This document shows, in pieces, positions 10,439-20,180 of a DNA stretch of 64,000 bases. The stretch is from Streptacidiphilus sp. P02-A3a (GTDB taxonomy: Bacteria; Actinomycetota; Actinomycetes; Streptomycetales; Streptomycetaceae). The stretch's first letter is position 1. Each line of letters begins with the position of its first letter. The translations under genes were made by a program, and so were the position numbers. The stretch covers positions 7,573,922 through 7,637,921 of the forward strand of contig NZ_CP048289.1 in NCBI RefSeq assembly GCF_014084105.1, given 5' to 3'. The notes beneath the pieces were generated by a model, which saw only the letters and a program-made list of their open reading frames with translations, was not told the DNA's origin and did no database searches.

Positions 10439-11263
10439 ATGCGTCCGTCCTCCGCCGCCCGCCTGGCCGGGGCGCTGGCCGTCGCCCTCGCGTCGGCGTC
10501 CTGCGGCCAGGGCGCCGGCCAGGTCGGCCACCAGCTCAGCCGCCCCGAGCGGCTGGCGGTGCGGGTGCTGGCGGTGCTGCCGCACGACCGGACCCAGTTC
10601 ACCGAGGGGCTGGAGCTGCGGGACGGAGTGCTCTACGAGAGCAGCGGCCTCTACGGCCGCTCCACGCTGCGCGCCGTCGACTGGCGGACCGGCGCGGTGC
10701 TGGCCCGGGCGGCGCTGCCGAACGGGCTGTTCGGTGAGGGGATCACCGTGGTCGGCGACCGGATCTGGCAGCTGACCTGGCGTGAGGGGATCGCCCTGGA
10801 CCGGCGCCGGTCCGACCTGGCCGTGCTCGGCGAGGTCCGCTACTCCGGTCCGGGCTGGGGCCTTTGCTACGACGGCCGACGGCTGGTCATGAGCGACGGC
10901 AGCGCCCGGCTGGCCTTCCGCGACCCGCACAGCTTCGCCCGTACCGGCGGCGTCCGGGTGACCGCCGCGGGCAGGCCGGTGACCGGCCTGAACGAGCTCG
11001 AATGCGCGGGCGGCTCGGTCTGGGCCAACGTCTGGAGGAGCGGCGACATCCTCCGGATCGACCCGGCGACCGGCGCGGTCACCGGCGTCGCCGACGCCTC
11101 CGGCCTGCTGTCCCCGGCGCTGCGCCGTGGCACCGACGTGCTCAACGGCATCGCCGCGCTCCCGGACGGCGCGCAGTTCCTGCTCACCGGGAAGTTCTGG
11201 CCGCTGATGTTCCGGGTGACGCTGCGTGCCCTGTCATCACCGGCTTCACCGGGCCACCCCTGA
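10439..11263 (+). CDS. Glutaminyl-peptide cyclotransferase-like secreted beta-propeller protein
   Basis: 274 residues. The N-terminus [20 protein letters not shown] is a signal sequence followed by SCGQG. The cysteine could be lipidated, although the -3 residue is not the usual leucine. The rest matches the five-bladed propeller glutamine cyclotransferases: [68 protein letters not shown] and [20 protein letters not shown]. Such enzymes form N-terminal pyroglutamate on peptides. It probably acts outside the membrane. The upstream gene is divergent, about 110 bp away. The ATG at 10439 has only a weak GG-rich site upstream. Confidence 0.8.
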
Positions 11264-11317
11264 GAGCATGGCGGTGCCGGGGGCGGGAAGGCGCGACGAG
11301 AGACCCAAGGAGAAGAC

Positions 11318-11665
11318 ATGAGCTCGCACATCTGGACCTACCGCGCGCAGGCAGTACCGGGGCCGCAGACGGACCTGACCGGATTCCGGGTCGAGGCCAC
11401 CGACGGCCACCTCGGCAAGGTCGCCGAGGCCACGCACGAGGTCGGCACCGCCTACCTGGTCGTCGACACCGGTCCCTGGATCCTCGGCAGCCTGGTGCTG
11501 CTGCCCGCGGGCACGGTCACCCACGTGGACGAACAGCAGCGGGTGGTCCACCTGGACCGCAGCAAGGACGAGATCAGGACCGCGCCGCCGTACCGCCCGG
11601 GGACCACGCCGGGCGACGTCGCCTACATCGAGCAGGTCCAGAGCTACTACCAGCGCAACTCCTGA
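11318..11665 (+). CDS. PRC-barrel domain-containing protein
   Basis: A 115-residue protein with a PRC-barrel core: [20 protein letters not shown], then [20 protein letters not shown] and [24 protein letters not shown]-barrel proteins are small beta barrels found in RNA processing and in stress-related actinobacterial proteins. The tail ([22 protein letters not shown]) is typical of stand-alone Streptomyces versions. The ATG at 11318 has a strong AAGGAGAAG ribosome binding site. Its exact role is unknown. Confidence 0.85.
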
Positions 11666-11790
11666 CGCCTGGTCCGGCGGCCGAGTGCGGCACAGCCGCG
11701 CCCGGCCGCCGGTGTGATCGCCGGCCGCGGTGGGCAGTCAAGATCCGTGAAGAGACTGGAACGCACGGCGTCCGCGCCGTGGAGGGAACT

Positions 11791-13083
11791 GTGAGCGCGT
11801 GTGTCATAGGCGCCGGCCTGTCGGGTCTGGCCGCCGCCCACGCGCTGCGGGCGCGTGGGATCGACTTCGTCTGCCTGGAGCAGGCGCCGGAGGTCGGCGG
11901 GATCTGGCGGCGGCCGGGGGCGGGTGAGCCCGGTCCGGCGTACCAGGCGCTGCACCTGAACAACGCCAAGGAGCTCACCGGCTTCGCCGACTTCCCGATG
12001 TCCGAGGAGCTGCCGCTCTACCCCCGGCACGACCATATCGCCGCCTACCTGCGGGACTTCGCCGAGTGGGCCGGGCTGCGGCCGCACATCGAGCTGCGTA
12101 CCGAGGTGCTCTCGGTACGGCGGGGGCCCGACGGGCGGTGGACGGTGGTCAGCCGGGACGACCGGGGGACGCTGACGACACGGACCTTCGACCAGGTGGT
12201 CGTCGCCTCCGGGCACCACTCGGAACCGGCCCTGCCCAGCCCCCCGCCGCCGGGTGCGGAGTCCTTTGCCGGAACGGTCCTGCACTCGACGGACTACCTG
12301 GACGGCCGGGACTTCGCCGGGCAGCGGGTGGTCGTCGTCGGCTTCGGGGCGTCGGCGGTGGACATCGCCGCCGACCTGTCCCGGCACGCGGAGCGCACCG
12401 TGCTCTCCGTCCGCCGGGGGCTGCACCTGGTACCCAAGCAGTTGTTCGGCATGTCGGTGGACCTGATCGCCGAGGCTCCCTGGTTCGGCGCCATGTCCCT
12501 GGAGGAGCGGCGCCGCTTCATCGAGCAGGCGCTGCTGGTGGCCCGCGGCAAGCTGTCGGACTACGGCCTGCCCGAGCCCGACCATCGGATCTTCTCCTCC
12601 GCGGTGACCATCTCCGACGAGATCCTGAGCCGGATCCGGCACGGCGCGGTGCTCCCGAAACCCGCCATCGACTCGCTGGACGGCGACCTGGTGCGCTTCG
12701 CCGACGGCAGCTCGGTCGAGGCGGACGCGATCGTCTACTGCACCGGCTTCCACATGGCCTTCCCGTTCGTACCCGGCGGCTGCCCGGCACCGGCCCCCCG
12801 GCAGCCGATCGAGCTGTACCGGCGGATCGTCGCGCCCGACCAGCCCGGCCTGCTCTTCGTCGGCCTGATCCGCCCGGTCGGCGCGATCACCCGGCTGGTC
12901 GAGGCGCAGGCCCAGTGGGTGGCCCGGGTCGTCGGCGGCGAGCTGGAGCTGCCGTCCGCCGACATCATGCGCAAGGAGATCAACGAGTACCTGAACGGCG
13001 TCGCGGCCCGCTACGGGCTGAGCGAGGGCTCCTCGGTCCAGGTCGACATCGGCTCCTACCTGCGGGAGCTGCGGGAGGCATAG
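11791..13083 (+). CDS. Flavin-containing monooxygenase / NAD(P)-FAD oxidoreductase
   Basis: 430 residues from a GTG preceded by GGAGGGAACT. The FAD-binding Rossmann motif is [15 protein letters not shown] (about residues 6-20), with [11 protein letters not shown] after it. The FMO identifying motif FxGxxxHSxxY is [11 protein letters not shown], directly followed by the NADP Rossmann motif [14 protein letters not shown]. The family oxygenates nitrogen or sulfur atoms, or oxidises amines to oximes. The gene is convergent with the aromatic prenyltransferase, 66 bp apart. In Streptomyces, DMATS-type prenyltransferases are often found next to FMOs that process prenylated indoles, so a joint pathway is likely but not proven. 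Confidence 0.85.
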
Positions 13084-13100: not shown

Positions 13101-13139
13101 CGGGGCTCCCGTGGACCGCCGTGGCCCACGGGAGCCCCG
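13101..13139. terminator. Bidirectional hairpin between monooxygenase and prenyltransferase
   Basis: A perfect 14-bp inverted repeat (13101-13114 and 13126-13139) with an 11-base loop sits in the 66-bp gap between two convergent genes. There is no T-tract, as is usual for Streptomyces hairpin terminators. Confidence 0.7.
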
Positions 13140-13149
13140 CCGCCCGCCC

Positions 13150-14286
13150 TCAGTGCCCGGCCGCCGCCCGCAGCGACCCCGACGCCGTCGGCCGCCGCAC
13201 CTCGTAGGCCTCCGAGGCGAGGTACGCGGTCACCCGGGGCGCCCGGCCCTGCTGGTGGGCCAGCGCCAGGTAGGCGATCAGTCCCACGCCGTCCTCCAAC
13301 GGCCGTTCGGTGACCGCCCCCACCGCGCTGACCAGCCGGTCCGGGTCGATGCCGTACCGGCGCAGCAGCACCACCGCGCGGTCCAGGGCCTCCCGGTCGT
13401 GCCGGGCGTAGTCGCGGATCGGGACGTACAGGGTGTAGCAGCTGGGCAGCCCGCTCACCGTCTCGGTGAAGCCGTGGCAGCCCTGGACCGGCCGCTGGTC
13501 CAGCAGGGCGTCGTGGCCGTCGCCGGGCTCGACGGCCGCGCGCAGGAACGCCTCCAGCTCCGCCGCGTCCGGCCCGCCGGCCATCCGGGACAGGCCGCTC
13601 GCCGCCGCCACCGGCAGGTCGTGGTGCGCGGTGTAGACCTTCACCCGGGGTTCGTCCCACTGGCCCAGGTCCAGGGCGAAGAACAGCAGCCGGTCGTTCT
13701 CCGGCAGCGCCGCGAACGCCTGCCGGTGGCCGAGCCGACGCAGCGCCTCCCGCACGGTCGCGGTGGCGCGCTCCGGTCCGGACGCGGCCGGATTCAGGTA
13801 CACCTTCACCTTGGGCACACCACCGGGGAGCAGTTCCAGCGCGCACCACAGGGCCAGGGGTCCCTGCGGGGCGGCCGGGAAGAACAGGTCCTCCAGCTCG
13901 TCGAGCCGGTCGGTGTCGAAGCCCCAGAGCCGCGCGAGTTCGCGGACCACCTGGAGTCCGGTGCGCCCGCTCTGCTCCAGACCGCCGATGCCGCCGCCGG
14001 GCTCCAGCACCATCCGCAGCGTCGGCCGCGCGCCCGCCACGAAGGAGAGCGAGAACTCGACCGGCGTCCGGTCGTCGGACAGGAAGGACCAGGGGGCGGC
14101 GGGCGGCAGACCCAGCGGCCGCTCGGCGACCGGGCCCAGCATTTCGGCCAGGATCTCCGTGTAGGCCGCGGCGTCGGCCCAGCTCAGCCCCACCACCCGG
14201 CACAGTCGCCACAGCTGGCCCACCGCGTGCGCACCGAGGGTCCCCGGGCGCGGTGGTGCCGGGCGGGTACGTCGAAGGGCGATCAC
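13150..14286 (-). CDS. ABBA/DMATS-type aromatic (indole) prenyltransferase
   Basis: 378 residues. The family's catalytic glutamate region is TPVEFSLSFVAG, followed by alternating beta strands that carry the diphosphate-binding Lys/Arg/Tyr pairs: PKVKVYLNP, PRVKVYTAHHD, SCYTLYVPIRDYARHD and PRVTAYLASEAYEV. The length fits bacterial tryptophan dimethylallyltransferases. The reaction expected is transfer of a dimethylallyl (or similar) group to an aromatic carbon; the acceptor is unknown. The GTG at 14286 overlaps the TGA of a 40-codon ORF (GTGA) and is preceded by GGGAGGGTCG, implying translational coupling. An in-frame ATG at 14505 would add 73 residues but lacks a ribosome binding site and has poor codon bias. 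It is the last gene of the leftward conservon-P450 operon. Confidence 0.85.
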   Translation of the reverse strand: MIALRRTRPAPPRPGTLGAHAVGQLWRLCRVVGLSWADAAAYTEILAEMLGPVAERPLGLPPAAPWSFLSDDRTPVEFSLSFVAGARPTLRMVLEPGGGIGGLEQSGRTGLQVVRELARLWGFDTDRLDELEDLFFPAAPQGPLALWCALELLPGGVPKVKVYLNPAASGPERATATVREALRRLGHRQAFAALPENDRLLFFALDLGQWDEPRVKVYTAHHDLPVAAASGLSRMAGGPDAAELEAFLRAAVEPGDGHDALLDQRPVQGCHGFTETVSGLPSCYTLYVPIRDYARHDREALDRAVVLLRRYGIDPDRLVSAVGAVTERPLEDGVGLIAYLALAHQQGRAPRVTAYLASEAYEVRRPTASGSLRAAAGH

Positions 14287-14405
14287 CGACCCTCCCGTCG
14301 GGCGCCGGAGGGCACAACGAGATACCCGCCCGGTTGGGCGGGTATCAAGGGTTGAGACGGTCTGGCAGGCTGCGCATAAGCGGCGTCGGTGGATATGTGG
14401 TCCAT
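14283..14405 (-). CDS. Candidate small ORF (40 aa) coupled to the prenyltransferase
   Basis: The ATG at 14405 follows ACAGGAGGTGTC, the strongest Shine-Dalgarno in this neighbourhood, and 40 codons later the TGA overlaps the prenyltransferase GTG. The product begins MDHISTDAAYAQPARPSQ, is rich in Pro and Ala, lacks Trp and Cys, and ends with a basic stretch (SGARREGR). About one third of the codons end in A or T, against very few in the flanking genes, so it is not a typical coding sequence: it may be a leader peptide whose translation opens the downstream start, or a recently acquired or poorly expressed peptide. A peptide substrate for the P450 or prenyltransferase is conceivable but unsupported by any recognised precursor motif. 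Confidence 0.5.
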   Translation of the reverse strand: MDHISTDAAYAQPARPSQPLIPAQPGGYLVVPSGARREGR

Positions 14406-14505
14406 GACACCTCCTGTCCTGATAAAAGCAACGTGGGATTGCCAGGTTGCTCACTACCCCTGTCGGACATGCGTCATGCACCAGGGGGCAGCCAGGAGGT
14501 GTCAT
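14403..14505 (-). promoter_or_regulatory. Candidate RNA switch: anti-Shine-Dalgarno/Shine-Dalgarno pairing around a three-way junction
   Basis: Read on the minus strand, the RNA starts with AUGACACCUCCUG (14505-14493), which is exactly complementary over 13 bases to CAGGAGGUGUCAU (14416-14404), the Shine-Dalgarno and first two start-codon bases of the 40-codon ORF. The 76 bases between can form two hairpins. P2 has CCCCUG pairing CAGGGG, extended by GCU with AGU. P3 has AGCAAC pairing GUUGCU, with an inner UGG/CCA stem. Together these make a three-way junction that would hide the ribosome binding site. The element begins only 7 bases after the P450 stop codon. It could be a riboswitch, a thermosensor or a protein-binding leader. 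No known riboswitch consensus was recognised. Confidence 0.55.
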
Positions 14506-14512
14506 ATGCCAG

Positions 14513-15850
14513 TTACTTGGTCAACCAGTTGAGGAACTGACTCCAGCGGCCGACGCGTTCGGTCTTGGGCTCGGCCTGCTGACGCACCGGCCGCTCCGCG
14601 CGGATCGGATCGGCGGGCCGGTTGACCGGCTCGATCGGGGTGAACCGGGCGGGCAGGGCGGCGAGTCCGCGGTTGAACGGGCCCGGACGCCAGGTCAGGC
14701 TGTCCTCCGGAACCGCGAGTTGGACGTCGGGCAGCTGGTTGAGCAGGTTCTCGATGGCGGTCATGGTGATCTGCCGGGCCGGTTCCTTGGACGGGCAGGC
14801 GTGCGGGCCCGCGCTCCAGGCCAGGTGCGCCCGGCTGCCGGCCTGCCGGGCCGTCGCCAGCGCCGGGCCGGTGTTCGCCGCGGCGAAGCTGACCAGCACC
14901 AACTCCCCTGCCTGCAACCGCTGTCCGGCGAAGTCCAGGTCGGTCGCCGGGTAGTGCGGGGCGAAGTTCGACATCGGCGGGTTCTCCCACAGCGTGTCGT
15001 CGATGGCCTCGTCGATCAGCCCGCCGCTGTGGGCGTAGGTGTCGTGGGTGAGCAGCCGGTGCAGGGTGTTGCCGATCAGGTTCCGCAGCGGCTCGGTCCC
15101 GGCCGACAGCAGCAGCGCGACCTGGTTCACCATCTCCTGGTCGGTCAGCTTGGCCTGATGCTGCATCAGCCAGGTGGTGACGTCGTCGCCCGGCTGGCTC
15201 CGCTTGAGCGCCACCAGTTCGCCGACCGCGCCGAACAGCACCTCGGCCGACTTCTCGGCGTTGATGCCGTCGAACATGCCGGTGATGCCGAACAGCACCC
15301 GGTCGCCGATGTCGGCGGTGCAGCCGAACAGTTCGTTGAAGACGAACAGCGGCAGCTGCTTGGTGTAGTCACCCAGCAGGTCGGCCGAACCCCGGCCGCC
15401 GAACTGGGAGATGAGGTAGCTGGAGACCTGCCCGGTGCTGCGGGTCAGCCGCCGGGTATCCACCCGGGCCATGCTGTCGGTGACCGCCTGCCGCAGCCGC
15501 AGGTGCTCGGCGCCGTCGCTGAACATGCAGTTGGGCCGGTACGCCAGCAGCGGCGCCACCGGGCTGTCCGGGGCGACCTTGCCCTCGTTGAACGCCTGCC
15601 AGCGGCGCGAGTCCTTGCGGAACGAGGCGGAGTCCTGGAGCAGTTGCAGCGCGGTCGAGTAGTCGGTGACCAGCGTCGCCTCCACTCCGGGGGCGAGCTC
15701 GACCGGCGCGGTCGGGCCGTAGTGGCGCATGTAGGAGTAGTAGGCCTGGGGATCGGCCGCGAACTCCGCCCCGTACAGCGGTACCCGGCCGCCGGAACCG
15801 TGGGCGGGGCAACCGGGCGGGGGCACCGGGACGGAAGATCGAGCGTCCAT
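14513..15850 (-). CDS. Cytochrome P450, CYP157-like, conservon-associated
   Basis: 445 residues. The haem-ligand cysteine lies in AWSAGPHACPSKEPAR and the I-helix in LLLSAGTEPLRNLIGNTL. Where the near-universal K-helix ExxR should be, the protein has DEAIDDTLWENPP. CYP157 family P450s of Streptomyces are known for replacing ExxR with an E-x-S-L-W-type sequence and for sitting directly after conservon genes, which fits this position. It starts 15 bp after the conservon GTPase end and is clearly in that operon. No substrate can be assigned; the adjacent prenyltransferase suggests an aromatic or terpenoid small molecule. The C-terminus is extended and polar (about residues 410-445). Confidence 0.85.
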   Translation of the reverse strand: MDARSSVPVPPPGCPAHGSGGRVPLYGAEFAADPQAYYSYMRHYGPTAPVELAPGVEATLVTDYSTALQLLQDSASFRKDSRRWQAFNEGKVAPDSPVAPLLAYRPNCMFSDGAEHLRLRQAVTDSMARVDTRRLTRSTGQVSSYLISQFGGRGSADLLGDYTKQLPLFVFNELFGCTADIGDRVLFGITGMFDGINAEKSAEVLFGAVGELVALKRSQPGDDVTTWLMQHQAKLTDQEMVNQVALLLSAGTEPLRNLIGNTLHRLLTHDTYAHSGGLIDEAIDDTLWENPPMSNFAPHYPATDLDFAGQRLQAGELVLVSFAAANTGPALATARQAGSRAHLAWSAGPHACPSKEPARQITMTAIENLLNQLPDVQLAVPEDSLTWRPGPFNRGLAALPARFTPIEPVNRPADPIRAERPVRQQAEPKTERVGRWSQFLNWLTK

Positions 15851-15865: not shown

Positions 15866-16476
15866 CTAGCGGGCGCGGTCCAGCAAATAGCGGACGAGAG
15901 TGGTGAGCGCGGCGGCCGACGACTTCTCGTCGCGCGCGTCGCAGGTGACGACGGGGGTGTCGTCGAGGAGGTCCAGGGCCTCACGGAGCGCCGCCTCGTC
16001 GCGCAGCGGGCTGCCGTCGAAGTGGTTGACCGCGATGGCGTAGTCGAGGCCGTAGTGCTCGATCAGGTCGATCACGCCGAACGAGTCGGCCAGTCGCTCG
16101 GGGTCGACCAGGATCAGCCCCCGAGCGCGCCGCGGGCCATCTCCTCCCACAGTTCCAGGAAGCGCTGCTGCCCGGGTGTGCCGAACAGGTACAGCACGAC
16201 GCGGTCGCTGATGGTCAGCCGACCGAAGTCCATGGCGACCGTGGTGGTGGTCTTGCCCCGGACTCCCTTCAGGTCGTCGACCGACTCGGCGACCCGCGTC
16301 ATGGTCTCCTCGGTGGACAGCGGCTCGATCTCGGAGATCGAGCCGATGAACGTGGTCTTGCCCACCGCGAAGTGCCCGACGACGAGGATCTTCACAGCGG
16401 TCTGCGTGGCCCCTTCGCGGACGTAGTCCTGCTGGTCCAGGTTCCGTGGTTCACGCAAACTTGGCCCGGAGACCAT
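15866..16476 (-). pseudogene. CvnD-like conservon GTPase interrupted by a one-base frameshift
   Basis: The N-terminal half (from ATG 16476) carries the P-loop VVGHFAVGKTTFIG and FGTPGQQRF, then stops right after MARGALGG. The C-terminal half continues in the -1 frame as GLILVDPERLADSFGVIDLIE, with the G4-like AVNHFDG and the G5-like CDARD. The break falls at a run of five C (16118-16122, G on the coding strand); restoring one base gives an uninterrupted Ras-like MglA/CvnD GTPase of about 203 residues. Cause: real mutation, homopolymer sequencing error, or less likely programmed slippage at GGGGGC before the TGA. The start overlaps the DUF742 stop by 26 bp, as is common in conservons. The GTPase is expected to act at the membrane with CvnA-C. 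Confidence 0.8.
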
Positions 16477-18711: not shown

Positions 18712-19905
18712 TCAGCCCTTCACGCAGACCAGTTGCTTCAACTGGGCGACGACCTCGACCAGGTCGGTCTGCTGGGCCATGACCTGCTCGATCGGCTTGT
18801 AGGCGCCCGGGATCTCGTCGACCACGCCGGAGTCCTTGCGGCACTCCACACCCCTGGTCTGCTCCTCCAGGTCCCGCACCCCGAACCTCCGCTTCGCCGC
18901 GTTGCGGCTCATCTTGCGTCCGGCGCCGTGCGAGGCCGAGTTGAAGGCCGCCTCGTTGCCAAGGCCCTTGACGATGTAGGAGCCGGTACCCATGGACCCC
19001 GGGATGATCCCGAACTCCCCGGAGCCCGCCCGGATCGCGCCCTTCCGGGTGACCAGCAACTCCTGTCCGCCGTAGACCTCTTCGCTGACGTAGTTGTGGT
19101 GACAGCTGATCACCTGCTCAAAGCCGACCCGGGCTCGGGTGAACTCCCTGCGGACCACGTTCTGGAAGAGCGCCATCATCACCGCCCGGTTGTGCTTGGC
19201 GTACTCCTGCGCCCAGAACAGGTCCTGCCGGTAGGCGGCCATCTGCGGGGTGTCCGCGATGAAGACCGCCAGGTCGCGGTCGACCAGGCCCTGGTTGTGC
19301 GGCAGCGAGCGGGCCACGTCCATGTGGTGCTCGGCGAGTTCCTTGCCGATGTTGCGGGAGCCGGAGTGCAGCATCAGCCAGACCCCGCCCGCCGTGTCCA
19401 GGCAGAACTCCAGGAAGTGGTTGCCCGAGCCGAGCGAGCCCAGTTGCGACATCGCCCGCTCCCGCCGCCAGTGCACCTGCGGCGCGACCTGGTCGAACCG
19501 CGACCAGAAGTCGTTCCAGCCCGCCACCGGGTAGCCGTGCAGCTTGGTCGGATCGACCGCCTCCGCGTGCGCGGCCCGGCCGACCGGGATCGCGCGCTCG
19601 ATCCGGTCACGCAGCCGGGAGAGGTTGTCCGGCAGGTCGCGGGCGGTGAGCGTGGTCTTCACCGCGCTCATCCCGCAGCCGATGTCGACGCCGACGGCGG
19701 CCGGGCAGACCGCCCCCCGCATGGCGATGACCGAGCCGACGGTGGCCCCCTTGCCCAGGTGCACGTCGGGCATCACGGCGAGGCCCGCGATCCACGGCAG
19801 CGTGGAGATGTTGCGCAACTGCTGCATCGCCTGGCCCTCGACGGCGGCCGGATCGGTCCACATCCGGATGGGCACCCGGACGCCGGGGACTTCGGTGTAC
19901 GACAT
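18712..19905 (-). CDS. rtcB: RNA-splicing ligase RtcB
   Basis: 397 residues with RtcB signatures: metal-binding cysteine in GVDIGCGMSAVKT, LGSLGSGNHFLEF, LMLHSGSRNIGKELAEHH, and the guanylylated histidine segment SHGAGRKMSRNAAKRRF. RtcB joins 2',3'-cyclic phosphate or 3'-phosphate RNA ends to 5'-OH ends with GTP and manganese, for tRNA or rRNA repair. The ATG at 19905 was chosen from the conserved start MSYTEVPGVRVPIRMW. A GGAGGTCG-type site lies upstream with long spacing. No archease or RtcA gene is adjacent. A 9-2-9 palindrome lies about 130 bp upstream. Confidence 0.95.
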   Translation of the reverse strand: MSYTEVPGVRVPIRMWTDPAAVEGQAMQQLRNISTLPWIAGLAVMPDVHLGKGATVGSVIAMRGAVCPAAVGVDIGCGMSAVKTTLTARDLPDNLSRLRDRIERAIPVGRAAHAEAVDPTKLHGYPVAGWNDFWSRFDQVAPQVHWRRERAMSQLGSLGSGNHFLEFCLDTAGGVWLMLHSGSRNIGKELAEHHMDVARSLPHNQGLVDRDLAVFIADTPQMAAYRQDLFWAQEYAKHNRAVMMALFQNVVRREFTRARVGFEQVISCHHNYVSEEVYGGQELLVTRKGAIRAGSGEFGIIPGSMGTGSYIVKGLGNEAAFNSASHGAGRKMSRNAAKRRFGVRDLEEQTRGVECRKDSGVVDEIPGAYKPIEQVMAQQTDLVEVVAQLKQLVCVKG

Positions 19906-20180
19906 GGTGGAAACGACCTCCGAGGTCGGTGTCTCACGATCAGGGTGCCGTACGGGGAACCCGGTACGGCGCGGTGGTGTGCCGCGTGTCAGTGGGAATG
20001 GCGGGCGGTGGAGGGGCGTCGCCTCGGGGAGGTGCGAACGCCGTGGCGTTCGCAGATCGACTCGACCCGCATGCTGACCGCCTCCTCTCCACCGCCTCGG
20101 GGACCGGGCTTCAGCGCCGGTCACGGACACCATTCAGCCACGCCACGCGGCAACGCCGCAACGGAATTCGAGTCCACCGA
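19906..20180. other. Upstream region of rtcB with a 20-bp perfect palindrome
   Basis: The noncoding region holds GCGAACGCC-GT-GGCGTTCGC at 20034-20053, a perfect inverted repeat with 9-base arms. Its position about 130 bp upstream of the rtcB ATG fits an operator or an mRNA-leader structure. No gene was recognised here. Confidence 0.45.

Follow-up and report, generated by a model that had tools for sequence, protein, structure and literature searches.

A candidate pyrBI-like attenuator behind a predicted SigB-type promoter in a conservon-P450-indole prenyltransferase operon

How is an indole prenyltransferase gene controlled when it follows a conservon-associated P450-like gene and is entered through a small ORF of 40 codons? 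An initial annotation of such a locus in Streptacidiphilus sp. P02-A3a had proposed an RNA switch. In that proposal a 13-base anti-Shine-Dalgarno (anti-SD) arm pairs with the SD of the small ORF (helix P1) and, with two further hairpins (P2 and P3), forms a three-way junction that controls both the ORF and the prenyltransferase. Clusters that link a conservon to an indole prenyltransferase have been described as widespread among actinomycetes, and the targets of P450-bearing conservons are, to our knowledge, poorly known. We compared the gap between the two genes with its homologues and found that, as had been proposed, it has the look of a cis-regulatory leader serving a small ORF that is coupled to the prenyltransferase, but that the conserved parts are largely not those of the junction.

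The locus and its homologous gaps

The window, a 64,000-nt stretch of a 9.33-Mb genome, carries on its minus strand, upstream of the gap, HATPase, Roadblock and DUF742 genes and the P450-like gene, as identified by profile search (Table 1). The prenyltransferase matched PF11991 (E 5.9e-13) and TIGR03429, the latter with an E of 5e-39 and yet only 134.7 bits, under the cut-off of 163.85. The P450-like gene scored 17.1 bits against PF00067, also under cut-off, and its same-strand homologues share 66-84% identity. This gene order is the conservon-indole prenyltransferase arrangement called Type B in the excerpts consulted of PMC3617294.

Table 1. Positions of genes and predicted regulatory features in the window.
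Feature	Position	Strand	Remark
P450-like gene, conservon-associated	14513..15850	-	upstream of gap
Crp-like operator CTGGCATATGACAC	14499..14512	-	one mismatch to GTG(N)6GNCAC
P1 5' arm (anti-SD)	14493..14505	-	overlaps right half of operator
-35 element GCATGA	14474..14479	-	SigB-homologue-type, predicted
-10 element GGGTAG	14454..14459	-	SigB-homologue-type, predicted
P3 inverted repeat/hairpin (GAGCAAC ... GTTGCTT)	14426..14452	-	overlaps predicted start site
P1 3' arm	14404..14416	-	contains SD GGAGGTG (14414-14408)
P4 hairpin GGTGTCATGGA / TCCACCGACGCC	14382..14411	-	encloses 3' half of SD and start codon
Leader ORF, 40 codons, MDHISTDAAYAQPARPSQPLIPAQPGGYLVVPSGARREGR	14283..14405	-	rare ATA at codons 4 and 21
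Intrinsic-terminator-like hairpin GATACCCGCCC AACC GGGCGGGTATC then TCGTTGTG	14321..14346	-	within leader ORF
Trp_DMAT (indole/tryptophan prenyltransferase) gene	13150..14286	-	GTG start overlaps leader stop
FMO-like gene	10864-13083	+	convergent with prenyltransferase

Prenyltransferase matches were found in 94 of 394 family genomes and in 37 named contigs, the named relatives being Streptomyces and Kitasatospora; the genome set included 14 of the genus, the window's own counted. Of 115 starting loci, 102 had P450 and prenyltransferase paired on the same strand, and 85 of these were distinct. Thirteen were dropped, either with the genes on opposite strands (L004-L010) or without a P450 match in the fetched stretch (L090, L110-L113 and L115). 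Two short stretches of 62 and 65 nt (L084 and L097), in which the P450 is joined to the prenyltransferase without any module, were set aside, leaving 83 gaps. Alignment A1 has 82 rows, with L089 omitted, and the P450 tree holds 82 of the 83. A prenyltransferase place in genome G312 and the weaker places below it lie outside the locus set. All shuffle statistics given below ignore relatedness.

Outside these counts, L090 has promoter, leader and hairpin, and the module was not seen in the other five loci without a P450 match (L110-L113, L115). Seven congeners (L004-L010) carry a distant prenyltransferase of about 30% identity on the strand opposite to a close P450 homologue. Inspection of the L004 and L006 stretches found no GGGTA upstream of this distant gene.

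The anti-SD repeat and the predicted promoter

The 13-base complementarity is exact: minus strand 14505-14493 (ATGACACCTCCTG) pairs with 14416-14404 (CAGGAGGTGTCAT) across a spacing of 76 nt. The described fold was also recovered, with P1, P2 and P3 all present in the MFE structure of RNA 14515-14400 (-54.8 kcal/mol against -37.2 +/- 3.8 for shuffles; z -4.68; 0 of 200 as good). No known RNA family was recognised within 14200-14800, in agreement with the annotation: no Rfam match reached gathering score, and the three sub-threshold matches had E 0.96 or worse. The argument that chance is unlikely held for the position on the SD, where the duplex with the upstream region reached -27.9 kcal/mol (z -4.3) and 0 of 200 shuffles were as good. 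It did not hold for a repeat anywhere in the window. A scan for perfect inverted repeats (arms of 13 nt or more, spacers of 3-150 nt) listed 18 entries in the window, several nested ones among them, whereas 5 Markov-2 resamples averaged 1.2 per 64 kb, so finding such a repeat somewhere in the window is unremarkable.

A riboswitch or thermosensor in which the anti-SD arm opens and closes the leader SD through the junction would suit the perfect 13-bp pairing and the fold score. Homologues, however, gave little sign of it. Covariation in P1 was absent across the 82 homologues, with 58.6% of cells paired against 59.5% in shuffled alignments, and 491 of 500 shuffles paired as much as the real one. 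P2 likewise lacked covariation (51.7% against 50.2%, 39 of 500 shuffles; a slid control was higher at 57.5%). P1 therefore failed as a conserved switch helix and, with P1 and P2 near or below background, the junction failed as a conserved riboswitch feature; it looks, in full, specific to the window's lineage. Of the three helices, only P3 was supported in homologous gaps (see below). The congener L003 has an identical P1 3' arm but no matching 5' arm, and its upstream duplex has a z of only -1.2.

Part of the P1 match is nevertheless inherited, judging from the alignment, in that relatives commonly have AACACC upstream and GGTGTC at the SD. The upstream-to-SD duplex had a mean z of -0.65 over the 83 gaps, with 12 below -2 and three very strong cases below -4 (the window, L014 and L035). 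The excess had a permutation p of 0.002 (0.003 without the window), values that carry no phylogenetic correction. Among 26 representatives the upstream region paired most favourably with the SD windows, at a mean z of about -0.95, or about -0.75 with dinucleotide shuffles. All of this is in the direction that a riboswitch would predict, and family-wide selection for anti-SD pairing was suggested at first. The excess then proved strongest for the conserved operator half, which had a z of -0.95 +/- 0.23 against the SD/start in 26 representatives; such selection may still act in single lineages. For the variable spacer the value at the SD was -0.30 +/- 0.19, or -0.18 without L001 and L035, although a single spacer window, 30 nt before the start, had a z of -0.65. 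P1 is thus best seen as a lineage-specific addition upon an earlier short complementarity.

The arm also lies on the wrong side of a predicted promoter. GGGTA, which was the search anchor, is present in 83 of 83 gaps, and the in-register -35 reads GCAT in 73, GTAT in 4, ACAT in 4 and otherwise in 2. The window's version, GCAT-N16-GGGTAG, has a GNNT-like -35 and a GGGTA-like -10 at the spacing of SigB-homologue promoters; GCATGA-N14-GGGTA occurs exactly twice in the 9.3-Mb genome, this site included. The same -35, spacing and -10 are found in S. coelicolor SigB-homologue promoters, such as SCO0566p (GCATAA-N14-GGGTAT) in the excerpted Table 2 of PMC8346170. Since 20 of the 24 rows in the excerpt of that table place the presumed start (the last printed base) 7-10 nt after the -10, the start here is predicted at about 14447-14444. 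This is some 46-61 nt downstream of the P1 5' arm. The annotation had taken this arm to be part of the mRNA, which the predicted start, downstream of 14493, contradicts as far as a prediction can: lying upstream of the conserved SigB-type promoter, the arm should be absent from that promoter's transcript. Together with the missing covariation, the anti-SD excess being strongest for the operator half, the L003 sequence and the lack of an Rfam match, this makes a riboswitch or thermosensor quite improbable.

The predicted promoter differs from those of the SCO0566p type in having a Crp-like site upstream and a partly conserved spacer. The site resembles the Crp motif GTG(N)6GNCAC given in the excerpts of PMC10033298; a literature search on the motif string returned no match. 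At -59..-53 from GGGTA, 7 of the 83 gaps match exactly, 45 with one mismatch and 31 with two or more, and at six control offsets only 0-4 of 83 gaps had at most one mismatch. Of the 73 gaps in which the P450 stop has its usual position, 68 carry GTGA at -57..-53, as do 8 of the 10 with the stop elsewhere, L012 and L106 being the two without it. The window's own copy is imperfect and lies about 3 nt off the family position, and the P1 5' arm begins within it (14512-14499). The spacer is partly conserved around TTCAAC at -11..-6 from GGGTA, with T in 66 of 83 at -11 and in 71 of 83 at -10. Full GTTCAAC is present in 16 of 83 gaps, and similar letters recur in several P450-P450 loci.

The leader ORF and its hairpins

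The small ORF, hereafter the leader, begins with ATG at 14405, and its stop overlaps the start of the DMATS-type prenyltransferase frame (TGA within GTGA), confirming the overlap initially described. A separate leader ORF of 32-83 codons is present in 60 of 83 gaps, with starts picked by a script rule, and 59 of the 60 have this 4-nt overlap; the exception is L089, whose start is doubtful. In the other 23 gaps the leader is fused in frame to the prenyltransferase. Fusion requires 6 state changes on a quick P450 tree, of which well-supported branches force only 1. The prenyltransferase start has its own SD-like GGGAGG. An alternative start at ATG 14505, to which the frame is open, was rejected, as relatives enter the frame at the SD-led leader start.

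Rare ATA codons are enriched in the leaders, at 123 of 4140 codons against 12 of 25157 in the upstream P450 codons (101 of 2867 in separate leaders and 22 of 1273 in fused leaders, the latter counted up to the stretch edge). Codon 4 is ATA in 50 of 83 gaps and never ATC or ATT. ATA thus tends to stand near the start, and most separate ORFs have a second in the terminator stem; those of the window are at 14396-14394 and 14345-14343. However, 49 of the 101 ATA codons of separate ORFs fall in the terminator hairpin, where pairing fixes the sequence, and the start-proximal ATA could reflect low structure in the P4 loop instead of slow decoding.

Three hairpins were followed through the alignment. 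P3 is conserved with compensatory changes, as the annotation had expected. In its extended form 70.6% of cells are paired against 63.8% in shuffles, and double-changed cells number 68 against 30.8; 0 of 500 shuffles did as well on either count, and slides reached at most 49.6% and 57. By contrast, 11 pairs had a double change against 10.9 (332 of 500 shuffles), so this measure is not above background. P3 folds with z<-1.5 in 46 of 83 gaps (mononucleotide shuffles). Given its overlap with the predicted start, P3 may act as an operator in the DNA, as a hairpin in read-through mRNA, or as both.

The conserved structure around the SD is the downstream hairpin P4, in which the SD/start (GGUGUC-AUGGA) pairs with leader codons 5-9. 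Cells were paired at 84.1% against 81.2% in shuffles (0 of 500; 82 sequences), with 17 double-changed cells against 6.7 (0 of 500) and 7 pairs with a double change against 4.8 (58 of 500). P4 was the best of 7 slides on cells paired (others at most 65.0%) and on covariation score, but not on double-changed cells, where one slide has 20. Its mean folding z was -1.9 over the 82, and -1.16 +/- 0.28 over 26 representatives; several clades are without it, as in L048, L083, L092, L106 and L114 it folded no better than shuffles. The P4 5' strand is shared with the P1 3' arm, making the two mutually exclusive, and P4 has an energy of about -12 kcal/mol against the -27.9 of the P1 duplex. RNAalifold called zero pairs on the full alignment, so the case for P3 and P4 rests on counts for named structures, and P4 was named from the window's short-transcript fold, so its counts are no blind test. 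The two hairpins overlap promoter and coding sequence, so constraint on the protein or the operator may account for part of their pairing.

The third hairpin resembles an intrinsic terminator. Its core (GATACCCGCC/GGCGGGTATC) with a T-containing tail was located by pattern in 71 of 83 gaps, a GGCC variant in 5 more, and it is absent in 7. The stem varies (GATACC/GGTATC, GACACC/GGTGTC, GGTACC/GGTACC). Covariation was assessed for the five outer pairs, not the core: pair 2 covaries, being paired in 66 of 71 gaps against 62.4 in shuffles (0 of 500), pairs 3 and 5 do so weakly (11 and 18 of 500) and pairs 1 and 4 do not (500 and 121 of 500). In the window, a 46-nt stretch has a z of -4.1, and the hairpin has one exact occurrence in the genome. 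The T-tract is weak, 4 T in 8 being the commonest form, and a terminator scan listed no site in the gap, this hairpin included. The reading frame through the hairpin changes: 54 of 58 separate leaders have it in frame 2 and 4 in frame 0, against 4 and 9, respectively, of 13 fused leaders. A hairpin that persists through such changes of frame argues for a role at the nucleic-acid level. A pairing of GGGTA with UACCC, by which the leader might counter the terminator, was considered by eye and rejected, as GGGTA stays where the terminator has changed.

The same observations bear on whether the small ORF encodes a precursor peptide of the RiPP type, with the neighbouring P450 and prenyltransferase as its modifying enzymes. 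Its place between the two genes is suggestive, as are a recurring N-terminus, MDHIS.DA, a motif PIPAxxGGYL, and GGY, GGH or GGS in 52 of the 60 separate ORFs. Yet 23 of 83 gaps have no separate ORF but an in-frame fusion, and the hairpin outlasts changes of frame. Third positions of codons 5, 7 and 8 are more conserved than first positions, as expected from P4, and the window peptide has no Pfam or NCBIfam match. We consider a precursor peptide very unlikely. Purely transcriptional control, with the inverted repeats (P3 and the Crp-like site) acting as DNA operators and the leader incidental, deserves more weight, as P3 has its outer bases upstream of the predicted start and half-sites of conserved sequence. 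Against it count the precise 4-nt overlap and the partial covariation, within the leader, of P4 and the terminator-like hairpin, and we regard it as unlikely too.

A proposed attenuator and its wider context

Conservation and pairing of the parts, and the overlap or fusion of the ORF, were seen directly; from these we infer promoter use, start site, termination, ribosome effect, Crp binding and signal. By analogy, the reading that we moderately favour is that the gap is a stress-type promoter driving a pyrBI-like attenuator, forming an internal module of the conservon-P450-prenyltransferase operon. The SigB-homologue-class promoter (GCAT-N16-GGGTAG) would give a transcript starting near 14447-14444, with the Crp-like site, about 60 bp upstream of this start, as part of the promoter module. 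Ribosomes would enter the leader via its strong SD, the 3' half of which is held with the start codon in P4. They would then cross the terminator-like hairpin and be passed to the prenyltransferase through the 4-nt TGA/GTGA overlap. When ribosomes are close behind RNA polymerase the terminator would stay unfolded and the prenyltransferase would be made. Slow initiation or early elongation, due to P4 or the rare ATA at codon 4, would instead allow the terminator to fold and transcription to stop.

E. coli pyrBI likewise has a terminator inside a short leader gene (pyrL, 135 bp in the excerpts of PMC4824070) upstream of the regulated gene, and here the leader ORF runs through the terminator-like hairpin to the downstream gene in 76 of 83 gaps. 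Ribosomes suppress the pyrBI terminator, according to excerpts of PMC4824070 and PMC5021804, their passage blocking hairpin folding; the same is proposed here. There are also differences. The UTP-sensitive pause of pyrBI has no evident counterpart here, where termination is predicted, and the start-codon hairpin, the SigB-type promoter and the overlap with or fusion to the enzyme gene set the present module apart. The Streptomyces amino-acid and tRNA-synthetase leader-peptide attenuators ilvL, thrL and alaL (Table 4 of PMC8079986, in excerpt) also have a short translated leader upstream, with residues marked as initiating attenuation. Unlike theirs, the ORF here crosses the terminator-like hairpin and overlaps or fuses with the enzyme gene. 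Ozaki et al. (2013, PMC3617294) describe the same gene set as here for conservon-(P450)-indole prenyltransferase clusters of Type B, those that include an FMO gene; the excerpts of their paper mention no leader ORF, internal promoter or attenuator. Nor was a description of this promoter-leader-attenuator module found in the excerpted open-licence literature on the subject.

Within the attenuator reading, P1 would be a lineage-specific extra, present only in read-through mRNA from upstream genes and closing the same SD, and it may silence such mRNA in this lineage. A stronger form of this idea makes P1 a lock. In RNA from the upstream conservon promoter the SD would stay closed until opened by a ribosome that terminates at the P450 stop, and the leader would be read only from the internal promoter or when the P450 is translated. 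The arm does follow closely on the P450 stop codon (14515-14513), P1 far outweighs the competing P4 in energy, and L014 and L035 have similarly strong pairings. Few lineages share the pairing, however, it shows no covariation, and read-through transcription is an assumption of the idea; the terminator scan was blank between P450 and leader, but this same scan missed the leader hairpin. We hold the lock as possible and less probable than the attenuator itself. As a lesson of method, the striking perfect pairing at the SD proved lineage-specific, and the conserved P4 and terminator-like hairpin were less eye-catching.

With a covariance model of the module, 77 of 150 genomes had matches at E<=0.1, and 25 places had E below 1e-14; many of the weak matches were partial. 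Eight further full-length matches (E 1.7e-8 to 1.3e-4) were fetched. Six of these (L116-L121) lie after a homologous P450 and before another P450-like gene (tblastn, by eye), with a similar operator and promoter but an SD that leads straight into the next gene, with no prenyltransferase leader. No P450 match accompanies the other two (L122 and L123), which may be chance. These findings suggest a shared output promoter for P450-bearing conservons. A broader proposal, which we find doubtful, is a new form of conservon output control. A stress-sigma/Crp-like promoter module would be shared after conservon P450 genes, the prenyltransferase branch would add the start-codon hairpin and leader terminator, and the speed of initiation and of isoleucine-ATA decoding would set the amount of prenyl-indole. 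An internal promoter and attenuator conserved in this way would in themselves offer a handle for switching conservon-linked prenyltransferase clusters on.

Some features of the neighbourhood were also noted. The convergent FMO-like gene suggests a Type B cluster in the sense of Ozaki; its listed start is probably too far upstream, because the FMO domain begins at residue 313. Between it and the prenyltransferase lies an inverted repeat whose arms match perfectly over 14 bp or more (window 13101-13139), possibly a terminator shared by both genes. At the expected position of the conservon GTPase (window 15866-16476, minus strand) there are two ORFs in different frames (16476-16114 and 16150-15866); we take this split, in a gene assigned by position only, as a frameshift or sequencing error. 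Upstream of the conservon is an RtcB-like RNA ligase gene (window 18712-20133, minus strand).
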